NCBI GenBank assembly: GCA_902515775.1
Contig: CABXVU010000005.1
Coordinates: 1 to 64,000 of the forward strand
DNA: 64,000 nucleotides
Source of the DNA: an uncultured SAR86 cluster bacterium
GTDB lineage: Bacteria > Pseudomonadota > Gammaproteobacteria > Magnimaribacterales > D2472
Reading direction: 5' to 3'
The notes beneath the pieces are model-generated. The model was not told where the DNA came from. It searched no databases and saw only the letters and a program-made list of their open reading frames with translations. Shown in pieces: positions 39,691 through 46,767 of the stretch (position 1 is the first letter of the stretch; the number at the start of each line of letters is the position of its first letter). The position numbers were made by a program, and so were the translations under genes.

Positions 39691-40092
39691 ATGGAAGGAG
39701 AAATTTGGGCATCATTGCATACTGCTAGAATAGCCAATGCAGCATTTTTTTTATCAACCATCGTATCTATATGGATTGCAGCTCGCTTTTCATCAGTTGC
39801 AGCTGAAAAAGGTTTAAATATGATTGGTAAGATTATTTGCTCGCTTTTTGCATTAGGTGTATTTATGGGGAACTGGACTATTGGCTCAACAGTAATGTCC
39901 ACCTACTCAGGATTTGGTAAGGCATTTGAGATGCTTGGTGATACAGGTGTAGAGTTATCGCCAATGGCATTGGGCTATATTGAATATTTTGGAACTGAAG
40001 CTACCGGAATGCCTAATCCAATTATGATGTTGGTGGGTGTGACGGGATTATTAATAGCCTTGGCTCCACTTTGGTTCAATCCTGCTGATTAA
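39691..40092 (+). CDS. Hypothetical small membrane protein
   Basis: MEGEIWASLHTARIANAAFFLSTIVSIWIAARFS..., RBS GGAG upstream, followed by a terminator. Confidence 0.65.
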   Translation: MEGEIWASLHTARIANAAFFLSTIVSIWIAARFSSVAAEKGLNMIGKIICSLFALGVFMGNWTIGSTVMSTYSGFGKAFEMLGDTGVELSPMALGYIEYFGTEATGMPNPIMMLVGVTGLLIALAPLWFNPAD

Positions 40093-40110
40093 TATAAAAT
40101 TAATTAAATT

Positions 40111-40136
40111 AAAGCCTGCTAATAGCAGGCTTTTTT
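40111..40136. terminator. Bidirectional Rho-independent terminator (AAAGCCTGCT-AAT-AGCAGGCTTTTTT)
   Basis: 10-bp stem, 3-nt loop and T tract between convergent genes. Confidence 0.85.
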
Positions 40137-41019
40137 ATACATTAAATAATTTAACTAGACTTGATGTGTCAAGGTCTCCATTTTTATCGTGAGACAATTT
40201 TTTATAGTTTTTTAATACAGATTTAGTTGTTTTAAGATCTAAGTTATTTAAATTTGCTTGTTCTAGCGCAATTTTTAAATCTTTGATCATTAAATCTACA
40301 GCGAATCCGAAATCAAACTTATTATCAACCATCGATTTAAAGCGATTATCCATTTGCCAAGATTGAGCTGCACCTCCAGATATAGCCTCAAGTACTTTTG
40401 TCATATTTAGATTAGATGATTTACCTAATGCAACTCCCTCAGACAATCCTTGAAGCAGTCCAGCAATACATAATTGATTAACCATTTTTGTTAATTGCCC
40501 ATGCCCACTAGGGCCGATTTTTGTAATTTTATTTGAATAAGATTGCATGATGCTTTCTATAATTGAGATCTTTTTATTAGGTCCTCCATACATTATCGAA
40601 AGAGTTCCATTGATAGCACCAACCTCTCCTCCACTTACAGGGGCATCAAAAAAAGAAATATTGTTTGAAATAAATTTTTTGTTTGATGAGATATTTTGGA
40701 TTAGTTGCAGAGAAGTAGTTGAATGATCAATTACAAATGCATTAGATTTTAGCAATCCAATAAAATTATTTTTAATTAAAACCTCAACTATCGACGAATC
40801 ATCTTTTAAGCATGTAATAAGGCCGTTAAATTTATTCTTATTGTCTTTAGACAATTTAAACTCAAAGCAATTAAAATCTTTTAACCATCTTTTTGTTACT
40901 TGATTTGATCTGTTAAAAACATAAAGATCTATATTAGGGTCTTTGGATAAATGACCTGACATTGAATATCCCATTGTCCCAAGACCGATGAATAAGTATT
41001 TTGGTTTATTTTTACGCAA
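40135..41019 (-). CDS. NAD(P)-dependent 3-hydroxyisobutyrate dehydrogenase-like oxidoreductase
   Basis: FIGLGTMGYSMSGHL, DAPVSGGEVGAINGTLSIMYGG, GPSGHGQLTKMVNQL. Track start is TTG; exact start uncertain. Confidence 0.9.
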   Translation of the reverse strand: MRKNKPKYLFIGLGTMGYSMSGHLSKDPNIDLYVFNRSNQVTKRWLKDFNCFEFKLSKDNKNKFNGLITCLKDDSSIVEVLIKNNFIGLLKSNAFVIDHSTTSLQLIQNISSNKKFISNNISFFDAPVSGGEVGAINGTLSIMYGGPNKKISIIESIMQSYSNKITKIGPSGHGQLTKMVNQLCIAGLLQGLSEGVALGKSSNLNMTKVLEAISGGAAQSWQMDNRFKSMVDNKFDFGFAVDLMIKDLKIALEQANLNNLDLKTTKSVLKNYKKLSHDKNGDLDTSSLVKLFNV

Positions 41020-41089
41020 TGTGAGTTAAGTTTATTTTTAAATAATTTTAACTCATTTTAGTTATTTAAAAAAAATGTGAATGTTTTCT

Positions 41090-41109
41090 TGTTTTAACAT
41101 GCTAAAACA
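41090..41109. promoter_or_regulatory. Near-perfect 20-bp palindrome TGTTTTAACATGCTAAAACA, candidate his-operon operator
   Basis: Palindromic except one base pair (positions 8/13); 16 nt upstream of the TrpR/YerC-like gene. Confidence 0.6.
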
Positions 41110-41124
41110 TATAGACTTGTCGTC

Positions 41125-41382
41125 ATGAAATTATCAACAGCACTAAAAAACTTAAATTCTGATAAAGACATAGATAATTTTTTAAAAGATTTATGTACTC
41201 CAGCAGAAATTGAAGCTATGAAAGAAAGATGGGAAGTTGCTCAACTTTTGTACAAAGGCGACTCAACATATAGAGATATAGCATCAAAATTAAACACCTC
41301 AACAGCAACGGTAACAAGAGTGGCTCGATTTCTTTTTAAAGAGTCCAACAAGGGATATTTGAGTTTATTAAAGCAGGATTAA
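41125..41382 (+). CDS. TrpR/YerC-YecD-like DNA-binding regulator
   Basis: LCTPAEIEAMKERWEVAQLLYKGDSTYRDIASKLNTSTATVTRVARFL; first gene of the his operon. Confidence 0.92.
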   Translation: MKLSTALKNLNSDKDIDNFLKDLCTPAEIEAMKERWEVAQLLYKGDSTYRDIASKLNTSTATVTRVARFLFKESNKGYLSLLKQD

Positions 41383-41384
41383 AA

Positions 41385-42251
41385 GTGGCGAAAAAAATTA
41401 CAATTGCAATTCAGCGAAAGGGTAGATTATTCGATAGTAGTAAGGAACTGTTAATTAAATCTGGTATTAACTTTAGTACCAGTGGTGAAAAACTTTTAGC
41501 TCGTTCTTCAAATATGAATATAGATATATTGCTAGTTAGAGATGATGATATCCCCTCACTAGTGTCAAAGGAGGTTGCTGATCTTGGTATTGTTGGAAAA
41601 AATGTTCTTGCAGAACAAGCTGCAAATAGCCGAAAGATTTCAGCCAAATCAGTATTAAATTTAGGATTTTCAAAATGCAGATTGGCTTTTGCAAAACCTC
41701 TTACCTCTAAAATTAAATCATTGAATAACAAAGTAATAGCTACGTCCTATCCAGGACTAGTTAAAAAATTTCTTAAGAAAGAGTCTATCAATGCTGAACT
41801 CATTAAAATTAATGGTTCAGTTGAACTTACTCCATATATAGGTATTGCCGATTGCATATGTGATCTTGTTTCTTCCGGGGCAACATTAGAAGCTAATAAT
41901 TTAACTGAATTTAAAACATTAATGGATTCAGAGGCCGTTCTTATTTCATCTAGTAATCTAAAGAATCTTAAGGATAAGAGTATTATTGATCTTGTTAAAA
42001 GATTTGAGGGTGTTATTAATGCTGCAGAGAGTAAATATGTAATGTTGAATGCAAGCACTAATTCTGTAAACAAAATATGCAAATTACTTCCCGGAGCTGA
42101 TTCACCAACCATCATTCCTTTGCAGGAAAAAAATAAAGTGGCAATTCATGCGCTATGCAGTGAGCCAGTTTTCTGGGAAACAATGGAAAAATTAAAGTCC
42201 AATGGTGCATCCTCAATACTTGTGATGCCCGTTGAAAAAATTTTAAATTAA
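41385..42251 (+). CDS. hisG: ATP phosphoribosyltransferase, long form
   Basis: ITIAIQRKGRLFDSSKELLIKSGI..., DLVSSGATLEANNL, C-terminal regulatory domain; GTG start. Confidence 0.95.
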   Translation: MAKKITIAIQRKGRLFDSSKELLIKSGINFSTSGEKLLARSSNMNIDILLVRDDDIPSLVSKEVADLGIVGKNVLAEQAANSRKISAKSVLNLGFSKCRLAFAKPLTSKIKSLNNKVIATSYPGLVKKFLKKESINAELIKINGSVELTPYIGIADCICDLVSSGATLEANNLTEFKTLMDSEAVLISSSNLKNLKDKSIIDLVKRFEGVINAAESKYVMLNASTNSVNKICKLLPGADSPTIIPLQEKNKVAIHALCSEPVFWETMEKLKSNGASSILVMPVEKILN

Positions 42252-44123
42252 ATGAAGTTAATAAATAGATCAAAATCAAAATTACCTATTCATTGGAAAT
42301 CTTCTACGATCAATTCTAAGGATATTGAAAACACAGCCTTTAGATATAGAGATTTAATTATCAATAATGGTACTAAGGCCTTTAACATAATTAATGATGA
42401 GTTAAAGCTTCCAAATATAAAATCTTTTAAAGTTAGAGCTGCAGAAATAAATAAATCTGAAAATTCTGTTTCAGATGATTTAAAGAAAGCTATTCTAGAT
42501 TCTTCAAACAATATCAAATTAATTTGTGAAGAAGAAAGAAAAAATTTAAGCTTTTCATCAATCGAAACCACCAAAGGAATCACTCTTTGGAAAGAATTTA
42601 GATCAATTGAGACAGTGGGTCTATATGTTCCAGGTGGCTCAGCACCATTAATATCCTCTTTTCTTATGCAACTTATACCTGCCAAAGTTGCCGGATGTAA
42701 AAATATAGTTGTATGCACTCCCCCATTAAAATCTGGTTCTATAGCTCCGGAAATCTTATGGATTGCTAAATTATTTGGAATTGAATCAATATATAAAGTC
42801 GGTGGTGCTCAAGCTATATTTGCGATGGCATATGGAACAACGGTTATTCCTAAGGTAGATAAAATTTTTGGTCCAGGTAATTCTTATGTAAATATTGCTA
42901 AAAAAATATGTTCTGAAGATGTTGCAATAGATTTACCTGCGGGCCCAAGCGAAGTCATGGTTGTTTCTGACGATGAGACAAAAGCTGGGCTGGTTGCAGC
43001 TGATGTTTTGTCTCAACTTGAACATGATGCTGCTTCTAAGGCATTTGTACTTTCAAACAATTTAAATTTACTTAAAAAGATTAAAAAAGAAATAAATATT
43101 CAACTTTCTTCACTTTCAAGAAAAAGTATTTTGGAAAAAAGTTTGTTAAATCTTCAGTTAATTAAAACAAGATCGATGGTTGATAGCATTTGTATGATTA
43201 ATGAATGTGCTCCTGAGCACTTAATTCTTCTAGATGACGATTACTCAAAGTTTTTATCAGGAATTTATAATGCAGGTTCTATATTTTGTGGCTCATTAAG
43301 TCCAGAGTCTTTTGGCGATTATTCTTCAGGGTCCAATCATGTACTTCCAACAAATGGTATGGCTAAAGTATTTTCTGGATTAGGAGTAAAAGATTTTGGA
43401 AAACAGATAAACGTTCAAACAGCATCGTCTGAGGGTTTTTTAAATTTAAAAGACACTGTTATTACCATGGCCAATGCTGAATCGCTTGATGCTCATGCAA
43501 GGGCTGTAGAAATCAGAGAAAAACTTGCAGTTACTAAATCGCGATCAAGAATTTCATCCGAGATTAGAAAAACCAATGAAACAAGCATATATATCAATTT
43601 AAATCTCGATGGAACCGGACAATACAATATTGATACAGGATTAAAATATTTAGATCATCTGCTCGAACAATTTTCTAAACATGGATCAATTGATCTCAAT
43701 ATTTCTTGCTTGGGAGATCTAGAAATCGATGAACATCATACAATTGAAGATATCGCAATTACTTTAGGCTCAGCAATTAATAAAGCATTACAAGAAAGAA
43801 AGGGTATATCACGTTATGCTTCGAGTGAAATCCTGGTTATGGATGAAGTAAAATGCAATGTAAGCATTGATCTATGCACCAGAAGATTTTTAAATTTTAA
43901 ATGCTCTGATCTTAGAGAAAGAGTTGGTGATTTCCCAACAGAAATGTTTGAACATTTCTTTATTTCTTTGATAAATTCTGCTGCTTTTACTTGTCACATT
44001 GATACCATCGGCAGCAATTCACATCACTTATTAGAGGCTACATTTAAAACATTTGCTAGATGTCTTCGATCAGCAATAGTTATTGAATCCAATCAAACAT
44101 CATCAACAAAAGGATTGATGTGA
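42252..44123 (+). CDS. hisDB: Fused histidinol dehydrogenase (N, ~1-426) and imidazoleglycerol-phosphate dehydratase (C, ~430-623)
   Basis: HisD: VGLYVPGGSAPLISS, SQLEHDAASKAF, ECAPEHL, ESFGDYSSGSNHVLP, LDAHARAV. HisB: ETSIYINLNLDGTGQYNIDTGLKYLDHLLEQFSKHG, DEHHTIEDIAITLG, SHHLLEATFKTFARCLR, STKGLM. One uninterrupted ORF. Confidence 0.93.
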   Translation: MKLINRSKSKLPIHWKSSTINSKDIENTAFRYRDLIINNGTKAFNIINDELKLPNIKSFKVRAAEINKSENSVSDDLKKAILDSSNNIKLICEEERKNLSFSSIETTKGITLWKEFRSIETVGLYVPGGSAPLISSFLMQLIPAKVAGCKNIVVCTPPLKSGSIAPEILWIAKLFGIESIYKVGGAQAIFAMAYGTTVIPKVDKIFGPGNSYVNIAKKICSEDVAIDLPAGPSEVMVVSDDETKAGLVAADVLSQLEHDAASKAFVLSNNLNLLKKIKKEINIQLSSLSRKSILEKSLLNLQLIKTRSMVDSICMINECAPEHLILLDDDYSKFLSGIYNAGSIFCGSLSPESFGDYSSGSNHVLPTNGMAKVFSGLGVKDFGKQINVQTASSEGFLNLKDTVITMANAESLDAHARAVEIREKLAVTKSRSRISSEIRKTNETSIYINLNLDGTGQYNIDTGLKYLDHLLEQFSKHGSIDLNISCLGDLEIDEHHTIEDIAITLGSAINKALQERKGISRYASSEILVMDEVKCNVSIDLCTRRFLNFKCSDLRERVGDFPTEMFEHFFISLINSAAFTCHIDTIGSNSHHLLEATFKTFARCLRSAIVIESNQTSSTKGLM

Positions 44124-44701
44124 GTGTCGCGATAGTTGATTGCGGTGGTGCAAACCTTCGTTCGGTAGCTACATCAATTGAGAGACTGCAAATTCCTTAT
44201 TTGATTACCGATAATAGTGATGAAATTATCAAAGCACAGTATGTAATATTGCCTGGTGTCGGTTCGGCACAGAATGTGATGAAACATCTAGAATCAAAAA
44301 ATTTAAATAATGTAATAACCCAGCTAAAACAACCTGTTTTAGGTATTTGTATTGGAATGCAGATTTTATTTAATTACTCAGCTGAGGGTAATACTAAATG
44401 TCTAGGAATATTTGATGAAAACATTGATCCGTTTAGCGAATCAAATCTTCTGAAAGTTCCTCAAATGGGATGGAATAAAGTGGAGTTTTCAGATGCCAAG
44501 CTAAAAAAATTAAATGATTATTACTACTTCGCTAATAGTTTTTATGCAAAAACATTCAATAGCACTAAAGCAATGTCAGAATATGGTATTGCTTTCTCAT
44601 CAGTCGTACAAAAGGATAATTTTTTAGGCTGTCAATTTCATCCAGAAAAATCTGCAGAAGCAGGTGTTAGGTTTTTAAAATATTTTTTGACTAAATCATG
44701 A
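44120..44701 (+). CDS. hisH: Imidazole glycerol phosphate synthase subunit HisH
   Basis: VAIVDCGGANLRSVATSIERL, PVLGICIGMQILF, GCQFHPEKS; GTG start overlapping previous stop. Confidence 0.95.
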   Translation: MSVAIVDCGGANLRSVATSIERLQIPYLITDNSDEIIKAQYVILPGVGSAQNVMKHLESKNLNNVITQLKQPVLGICIGMQILFNYSAEGNTKCLGIFDENIDPFSESNLLKVPQMGWNKVEFSDAKLKKLNDYYYFANSFYAKTFNSTKAMSEYGIAFSSVVQKDNFLGCQFHPEKSAEAGVRFLKYFLTKS

Positions 44702-45417
44702 GAGTCCTACCCGCTATAGATTTAAAAAATGGAAACTGTGTACGGTTAATTAAAGGTAATTTTAATGATGTAACTAATTACAATAATGATCCAATCAATC
44801 AAGCGAATATTTTTTTAGAAAATAATTTTAACTATTTACACGTTGTAGATCTTGACGGTGCTCAAACAGGCAATCAATTAAATCTATCGGTTATTCAAAA
44901 ACTTTTAGAGATATCTGGATTAAAAATTCAAGTTGGCGGAGGCATTAGAGAAGTTGAAGATGTTTACAACATGCTTGAATTGGGTGTCTCAAGAGTCATT
45001 GTTGGTACAGCAATATTTAAAGAAAAATTTTTAGATAAAATCAAAGAAAATTTTGATCCAGATCAGATAATTTTAGCTGTTGATTTTAATTCATTAGATG
45101 GCATACCCTATATTTATACTCACGGATGGCAAGATAATAGCAATATTAAATTATTTGACTTTATTTCAGATAATTCTTATTTTAAAAATCTCCTTGCTAC
45201 AGATATTTCACTCGATGGCGTATTACAAGGAGCCAGTTTTGAAACCTATGAACAGATCTTGCGATTATTTCCTGCGTCAAATTTAATTGCCTCTGGAGGC
45301 GTAAGTTCAATGAGTGATCTTGCAAAGTTAGAAAACTTACAAATTCAAGAATGTATTGTTGGCAAAGCGATATATGAAAAAAAAATATCTTTATCTGATT
45401 TAAGCAATGATTACTAA
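44698..45417 (+). CDS. hisA: Phosphoribosylformimino-5-aminoimidazole carboxamide ribotide isomerase
   Basis: VLPAIDLKNGNCVRLIKG, LHVVDLDGAQTG, IQVGGGIREVEDV. Confidence 0.95.
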   Translation: MRVLPAIDLKNGNCVRLIKGNFNDVTNYNNDPINQANIFLENNFNYLHVVDLDGAQTGNQLNLSVIQKLLEISGLKIQVGGGIREVEDVYNMLELGVSRVIVGTAIFKEKFLDKIKENFDPDQIILAVDFNSLDGIPYIYTHGWQDNSNIKLFDFISDNSYFKNLLATDISLDGVLQGASFETYEQILRLFPASNLIASGGVSSMSDLAKLENLQIQECIVGKAIYEKKISLSDLSNDY

Positions 45418-46180
45418 AAGAATCATTCCATGTTTAGATGTTAGAGATGGTCATGTGGTCAAAGGTATTCAGTTTAAAAATCATAAAATTGTTGGATCTA
45501 TTGTAGATCTAGCAAAAAAGTACTCTCAAGAAGGTGCCGATGAGCTTGTTTTTTATGATATTACTGCGAGTACAGATGGCTCAACTGTCAGTAAAGAATG
45601 GGTTTCAAGGATATCCGATGTTATCAATATACCGTTTTGTGTTGCTGGCGGCATCAAATCAGTGAATGATGCGAGATCAATACTAAATCTTGGAGCTGAT
45701 AAGGTATCAATCAACACCCCTGCTTTGGAGAACCCAAATTTAATTAGGGAATTGAGCCTGGAATTCGGATCGCAATGTGTTGTAATTGGCATGGACATTA
45801 AAACCATAGATGGAAAAAGTTTCCTTTTTGCAAAAACTGGTAATGAATTAACAGCACATTCAACAGAAATTTTAGCTTTAGACTGGATAAGAAAAGTACA
45901 AAAACTTGGTGCAGGCGAAGTGGTAATAAATTCCATGAATCAAGATGGCATGAAAAATGGATATGACATTTCTCTTTTAAATGAATTAAGCAAAGTCTGT
46001 ACTTTGCCTATGATTGCCTCTGGTGGGGCTGGTAGTGATGATCACTTTATAAATGTATTTGCAAATACGAATGTGGATGGCGCTCTGGCTGCAAGTATAT
46101 TTCATAACAATGAGTATTCAATTCAAGATATTAAAACTTCACTGCAATCAAATAAAATTAATATAAGGACTTCGTTATGA
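45407..46180 (+). CDS. hisF: Imidazole glycerol phosphate synthase subunit HisF
   Basis: RIIPCLDVRDGHVVKGIQFKNH, GADELVFYDITAS, VAGGIKSVNDA, ASGGAGS. Confidence 0.96.
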   Translation: MITKRIIPCLDVRDGHVVKGIQFKNHKIVGSIVDLAKKYSQEGADELVFYDITASTDGSTVSKEWVSRISDVINIPFCVAGGIKSVNDARSILNLGADKVSINTPALENPNLIRELSLEFGSQCVVIGMDIKTIDGKSFLFAKTGNELTAHSTEILALDWIRKVQKLGAGEVVINSMNQDGMKNGYDISLLNELSKVCTLPMIASGGAGSDDHFINVFANTNVDGALAASIFHNNEYSIQDIKTSLQSNKINIRTSL

Positions 46181-46767
46181 TAAAACTCGATTGGGAAAAG
46201 GTTAATGGTTTGATACCAGCAATTATTCAGGACCATAAAACTCTGCAGGTTTTAATGCTGGGATATATGAACAAAGAAGCTCTTGAAATAAGCCAATCAA
46301 CAGGATTGACAACATTTTTTAGTAGAACTAGACAAAAATTATGGACCAAAGGTGAAACCTCAGGCAATAATCTAAAAATTAAAAAAATAATGCATGATTG
46401 TGATAATGACACATTGCTTGTTCTTGCTGAGAATAATGGTCCTACATGTCATCTTGGTCGAAACTCTTGCTTTGAAGATTCTCCCTCCTCATTTAATGAA
46501 ATTGACAAATTAGAAGAAATGATTGATTTAAGATTTAAGGAGGCTGATTTATCCTCCTACACATACCAGTTATTTAAAGGCGGTATTAAAGAGATGGCCA
46601 AAAAAGTTACTGAAGAGGCTGGTGAAGTTTCTATTGCAGCTGTTACGAATGACGGGCGAGTAATAGATGAAACAGCTGATTTGATTTATCACCTGCTGGT
46701 AACTCTGAGAAAATTAAATCTTAGCTTTTCTGATGTTTTGGATGAACTAAATGTGAGATCAAAGTAG
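46177..46767 (+). CDS. hisIE: Bifunctional phosphoribosyl-AMP cyclohydrolase/phosphoribosyl-ATP pyrophosphatase
   Basis: VLMLGYMNKEALEISQSTGLTTFFSRTRQKLWTKGETSGN; KKVTEEAGEVSIAAV; overlaps hisF stop. Confidence 0.95.
   Translation: MIKLDWEKVNGLIPAIIQDHKTLQVLMLGYMNKEALEISQSTGLTTFFSRTRQKLWTKGETSGNNLKIKKIMHDCDNDTLLVLAENNGPTCHLGRNSCFEDSPSSFNEIDKLEEMIDLRFKEADLSSYTYQLFKGGIKEMAKKVTEEAGEVSIAAVTNDGRVIDETADLIYHLLVTLRKLNLSFSDVLDELNVRSK

Follow-up and report, generated by a model that had tools for sequence, protein, structure and literature searches.

The window, by which we mean the whole 64-kb stretch of DNA analysed, comes from an uncultured SAR86 bacterium and contains a his operon whose genes follow each other in the order hisR-hisG-hisDB-hisH-hisA-hisF-hisIE, with the start of hisG lying 2 nt past the hisR stop codon. 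A near-perfect palindrome precedes the first gene. The features of the locus are the following.

41082 to 41084, plus strand: outer half-site TGT, exactly 8 bp before the TGT of the operator, a possible contact for a tandem dimer
41089 to 41094, plus strand: predicted -35 box TTGTTT
41090 to 41109, no strand assigned: predicted HisR operator, TGTTTTAACATGCTAAAACA
41112 to 41117, plus strand: predicted -10 box TAGACT
41125 to 41382, plus strand: hisR, 85-aa TrpR-superfamily repressor of the YerC/YecD type with a predicted leaderless start codon (from profile, structure and promoter spacing)
41385 to 42251, plus strand: hisG, long form (ATP phosphoribosyltransferase with a HisG_C domain, from profile matches)
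42252 to 44123, plus strand: hisD-hisB fusion of 623 aa (histidinol dehydrogenase and imidazoleglycerol-phosphate dehydratase)
44120 to 44701, plus strand: hisH
44698 to 45417, plus strand: hisA, named by sequence and place in the operon
45407 to 46180, plus strand: hisF, named in the same way
46177 to 46767, plus strand: hisIE, the final gene of the operon

Nearly every SAR86 hisR locus tested has the hisDB fusion, and so do three loci from Alphaproteobacteria (L088 from Hyphobacterium, L111 and L112 from Maricaulis). Neither 'hisDB' nor 'hisBD' was found in the text of a survey of his gene fusions (PMC1963479).

In the palindrome, 9 of the 10 base pairs are complementary, the sole exception being the A-C pair at positions 8 and 13, and a gap of 15 nt separates its 3' end from the hisR ATG at 41125. 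The preliminary description had reported a palindrome at this place, self-complementary but for one pair and situated just upstream of a TrpR/YerC-like gene heading the his operon; its sequence and coordinates proved exact, and both the domain matches and the gene order agree with this placement.

The symmetry could have arisen by chance in AT-rich DNA and be conserved merely through an overlapping promoter. Such symmetry is indeed common in the window (33% GC), where 11 20-mers have at least 9 of 10 complementary pairs against about 4.9 expected (range 2-10); a given start has a probability of about 0.8% of having one no more than 100 nt away. Since near-perfect palindromes are this frequent, symmetry proves little, and the proof has to come from conservation. 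Among the 11 is a perfect 20-bp palindrome, ATAATATTTATAAATATTAT, at positions 740-759. The sequence of the operator itself is much rarer: allowing up to three mismatches, it has a single match in the window (0.08 expected) and a single match in the whole host genome (1.26-Mb assembly, 78% complete). The general HisR motif likewise occurs once per genome in nine of the ten matching SAR86 genomes and twice in the remaining one. The second site, TGTTTTAAAACTTTAAAACA (L173), lies at 579573-579592 of contig C1 in a SAR86 genome that is 95% complete (G026). Near-matches in four genomes (G010, G017, G018 and G021) were considered as additional members of the regulon and rejected as coincidence, as all of them lie in the coding DNA of a single conserved gene, TPR/sulfotransferase-like in type.

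Among 60 relatives, 29 possess hisR, all of them members of the host's family. All 45 intact SAR86 hisR loci that were aligned have a matching site in the corresponding position. These rows comprise 25 distinct operator sequences, and since some rows come from one genome or from genomes that are nearly alike, the counts do not represent independent events. Upstream sequence was long enough in 22 same-genus rows. In these the site stands 34-37 nt ahead of the hisR ATG, and an unbroken conserved block extends from the T preceding TGT to the last T of TAGAAT, after which conservation stays at about background level up to the ATG. The motif TGTnYTArnnnnyTArnACA is also the best site ahead of hisR in other SAR86 genera, in Alphaproteobacteria (Maricaulaceae, Hyphomonadaceae and Holosporales) and in other Gammaproteobacteria, although the site finder always outputs the top-scoring 20-mer and weak rows (e.g. 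L063 and L027) carry little weight. The preliminary description had made its reading depend on conservation of the palindrome in relatives with the same gene arrangement, and such conservation was found: the SAR86 hisR-his loci have the site at a constant position, and Alphaproteobacteria and other Gammaproteobacteria have it too, though its sequence has drifted there.

Between the half-sites there is little base-pair covariation (7.48 pairs, compared with 7.22 in shuffles, 121 of 2000 of which score as high), as a chance palindrome would have it, but this is because the key pairs hardly vary. The recurrence of the same half-sites ahead of hisR in SAR86, Alphaproteobacteria and other Gammaproteobacteria speaks against chance, as does their retention in other SAR86 genera despite the operator being about 6 bp closer to the ATG. 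We regard a chance origin of the palindrome as highly improbable.

The 85-aa protein matches the Trp_repressor family (PF01371, E 8.9e-22). It might thus be a true tryptophan repressor, TrpR, that controls the his genes by happenstance, or otherwise respond to tryptophan. Besides membership of the TrpR superfamily, this reading can draw on the 38.4 bits that the protein scores against the TrpR equivalog model (TIGR01321) and on the similarity of the operator to that of TrpR, TGTAcTnGTnnACnAgTACA. That score, however, lies below the curated cut-off of 67.25, whereas the 51.1 bits obtained with the YerC/YecD model (TIGR02531) lie above its cut-off of 42.2. The closest solved chains are of the YerC/HisR type (3g1c, 3frw and 3kor), and an AlphaFold2 model of the protein (pLDDT 92.5) had 3kor, 3g1c and 3frw as top matches, followed by E. 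coli TrpR, with Foldseek E-values of just 1e-3 to 1e-2, which are modest because the protein is short.

The residues of TrpR that contact tryptophan include L41, L43, G85, N87 and S88. In SAR86 HisR their places are taken by D22, C24, V66, R68 and F69, so that most side chains of the tryptophan pocket are replaced, while TrpR residues T44, R54 and R84 are retained (the E. coli TrpR reference sequence used in this comparison was confirmed against the PDB). Five of the six DNA-contact residues of TrpR, as listed in PMC9413887, are kept as well (R69, A80, T81, T83 and R84). From this pattern we infer DNA recognition of the TrpR kind and a ligand that is probably still an amino acid, though not tryptophan. 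The gene neighborhood and the regulon argue in the same direction: almost everywhere in SAR86, hisR is directly followed by hisG, and the host genome contains only the one site. Control of the operon by a tryptophan repressor therefore appears improbable, and we refer to the protein as HisR.

The predicted -35 box overlaps the left half of the operator, and its columns, including the T just outside the palindrome, show little or no variation across the 22 same-genus rows. The predicted -10 box follows at a distance of 17 nt, with the conserved block ending at its last T; its equivalent reads TAGAAT in most congeners and TATAAT in other SAR86 genera, giving promoter pairs of TTGTTT-17-TAGAAT or TTGTGT-17-TATAAT in the relatives. 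As the -35 box shares only 3 of its 6 bases with the consensus, and as a generic sigma-70 promoter scan of 40950-41450 found nothing, the promoter assignment rests on conservation and spacing. With the boxes so placed, the operator would sit within the 17-bp promoter spacer and touch both of them. In another SAR86 group, where the operator starts 29 rather than 34-35 nt ahead of the ATG, it is overlapped by a candidate -10 box, TACACT, whose end still lies 7 nt upstream of the start codon.

Of the 45 SAR86 loci, 43 have a TAnnnT box whose end lies 6-8 nt upstream of the ATG, the exceptions being L019 (9 nt) and L064 (4 nt); the 43 include L018, which was counted by eye after the script had picked an ATG inside the operator. 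A Shine-Dalgarno-like motif before hisR was found in none of the 45, whereas alphaproteobacterial loci such as L095 have a GGAGG-like site there instead. The his mRNA of SAR86 is thus predicted to be leaderless, starting at or within 1-2 bases of the hisR ATG. Across 142 promoter-bearing starts of the host genome, -10-like boxes peak mainly 25-35 nt before the start, with a minor peak at 6-8 nt (15 boxes where the upstream background would give about 5, a rough estimate), which suggests that leaderless genes form a minority class in this genome.

The position of the start bears on whether the inverted repeat could instead work in RNA, forming a hairpin of the terminator or attenuator type within a his leader. 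An inverted repeat of 20 bp is able to fold, and the his operons of enteric bacteria do use attenuation. This repeat, however, has no loop-forming spacer, and the conserved -10 box lies downstream of it, which means that it would not be transcribed. The 15 nt before the ATG are too short for a leader peptide, and with a transcript beginning about at the ATG (a predicted leader of 0-2 nt) a classical his attenuator could not be present. Near 41090 no Rfam family matched even at E up to 1, including His_leader (RF00514), and a scan of 40950-41450 revealed no terminator-like site near the palindrome; weak Rfam matches at 40066-40185 are below the gathering scores and away from the palindrome. An RNA hairpin is accordingly a very remote prospect, and we return to the palindrome as a site in DNA.

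In our view the palindrome very probably serves as the operator for a histidine repressor of the TrpR family, HisR, which controls the his operon that its own gene heads. By analogy with TrpR, a HisR homodimer would bind the half-sites TGT..YTAR and YTAR..ACA when histidine is plentiful. As the operator fills the 17-bp spacer and touches both boxes, HisR on its site would keep RNA polymerase off the promoter and silence its own gene together with those of all the his enzymes, a negative feedback that is local to the operon. The preliminary description had proposed that the operon is autoregulated, with a TrpR-like protein as histidine repressor and an operator that can be read from the sequence; this proposal gains support from the conservation of the site and from the published mechanism of HisR (PMC9413887).

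The upstream sequence may offer more than one contact for HisR. The outer TGT, 8 bp before that of the operator, is present in 25 of 25 same-genus-type SAR86 rows, 7 of 24 alphaproteobacterial rows and 7 of 21 rows from other Gammaproteobacteria, while at nearly every other offset TGT occurs in 0-3 rows (9 at -3 in the SAR86 genus). On the other side, an ACA 8 bp after that of the operator is found in 8 of 21 gammaproteobacterial, 6 of 24 alphaproteobacterial and 3 of 20 other SAR86 rows; all these offset figures are raw row counts without correction for phylogeny. E. coli TrpR binds as tandem dimers in 8-bp steps. The matching offset suggests that a second HisR dimer may bind in tandem at the outer half-site. 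More tentatively, and with somewhat less than even confidence, we propose that the 36-bp block at 41082-41117 combines promoter, operator and tandem-dimer site, that the mRNA begins at the hisR start codon under purely transcriptional feedback, and that 8-bp tandem binding of HisR is a general and so far undescribed property of proteobacterial HisR operators.

The distribution of the system within the order is uneven. SAR86 families f2 and f3 have no hisR and no such site ahead of hisG; their hisG is of the short form and lies directly behind the preceding gene, which we take to be murA from a reading of its C-terminus. Two his systems thus coexist in one order, a short HisG without hisR (f2 and f3; L116-L123) and a long HisG with hisR (the host's family). 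No match to hisG was obtained in family f4 or in several hisR-less genomes of the host's own family, some of which are incomplete. In a HisG tree, the SAR86 rows, the hisR-linked alphaproteobacterial rows and the short HisG of the other SAR86 families formed separate groups, and the tree identified no donor for the SAR86 cassette.

One genome of the same genus (G014; L124, contig C2, 51000-61500) has lost the his enzymes from the interval between hisR and the symporter gene while keeping the flanking symporter and reductase genes and hisR, the latter as a relict ORF of 104 aa. About 5 of the 10 pairs are left in its decayed operator, and a TAAAAT 7 nt before the ATG remains. In this single case, the decay fits an operator whose purpose is gone. 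HisR/TrpR-like genes were also seen on four contigs labelled Patescibacteria/Paceibacterota (L087, L096, L099 and L108), with no his genes nearby as judged by similarity to the His proteins of the window; these are either mislabelled bins or genes with a different role.

HisR was described in 2022 as a member of the TrpR family that recognizes 20-bp palindromes (Ashniev et al., PMC9413887). According to that paper, HisR of Ruminococcus gnavus requires histidine for DNA binding, and in Proteobacteria the HisR site lies immediately upstream of hisR, the first gene of the his operon. The SAR86 locus resembles this proteobacterial regulon in having a TrpR-family gene first in the his operon, a 20-bp palindrome just upstream and a single regulated operon. 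It differs in its site, TGTTTT..AAAACA against the published TGTAnTA..TnTTACA, and in its predicted leaderless start. Compared with the full consensus, TGTAnTArnnnnyTnTTACA, the outer TGT/ACA and the TAr/yT agree, whereas positions 4 and 17 are T/A here rather than A/T; in some SAR86 genera they are A/T. R. gnavus HisR and Bacillus YerC, both from Firmicutes, share the family and the fold (3g1c, 3frw, 3kor), but their operator is cacTTTAnnnnnnTAAAgtg and their hisR usually lies outside the his operon. With E. coli TrpR, the SAR86 system has in common the fold, most DNA-contact residues, an operator that overlaps the promoter and self-complementary YTAR cores 8 bp apart (CTAG in trp), whereas the tryptophan pocket is replaced and the genes under predicted control are his rather than trp.

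The assignment of a HisR operator is thus supported and not new in kind. The main text of PMC9413887 mentions neither SAR86 nor leaderless transcripts, and the passages of it considered here make no mention of outer half-sites at 8 bp. New here are the membership of SAR86, the operator within the predicted 17-bp spacer, the predicted leaderless mRNA and the outer half-sites at 8 bp, the phase of TrpR tandem binding.

SAR86 bacteria are abundant in the surface ocean and have streamlined genomes, which makes the regulatory switches they contain of interest. What the locus provides for an amino-acid repressor is an operator open to testing, along with predictions of the transcription start and of the ligand. 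Operon, repressor and operator together form a module that related lineages either have or lack as a whole. The proposed 8-bp tandem steps would moreover constitute a simple prediction of HisR-DNA geometry that can be checked in any laboratory bacterium bearing HisR.
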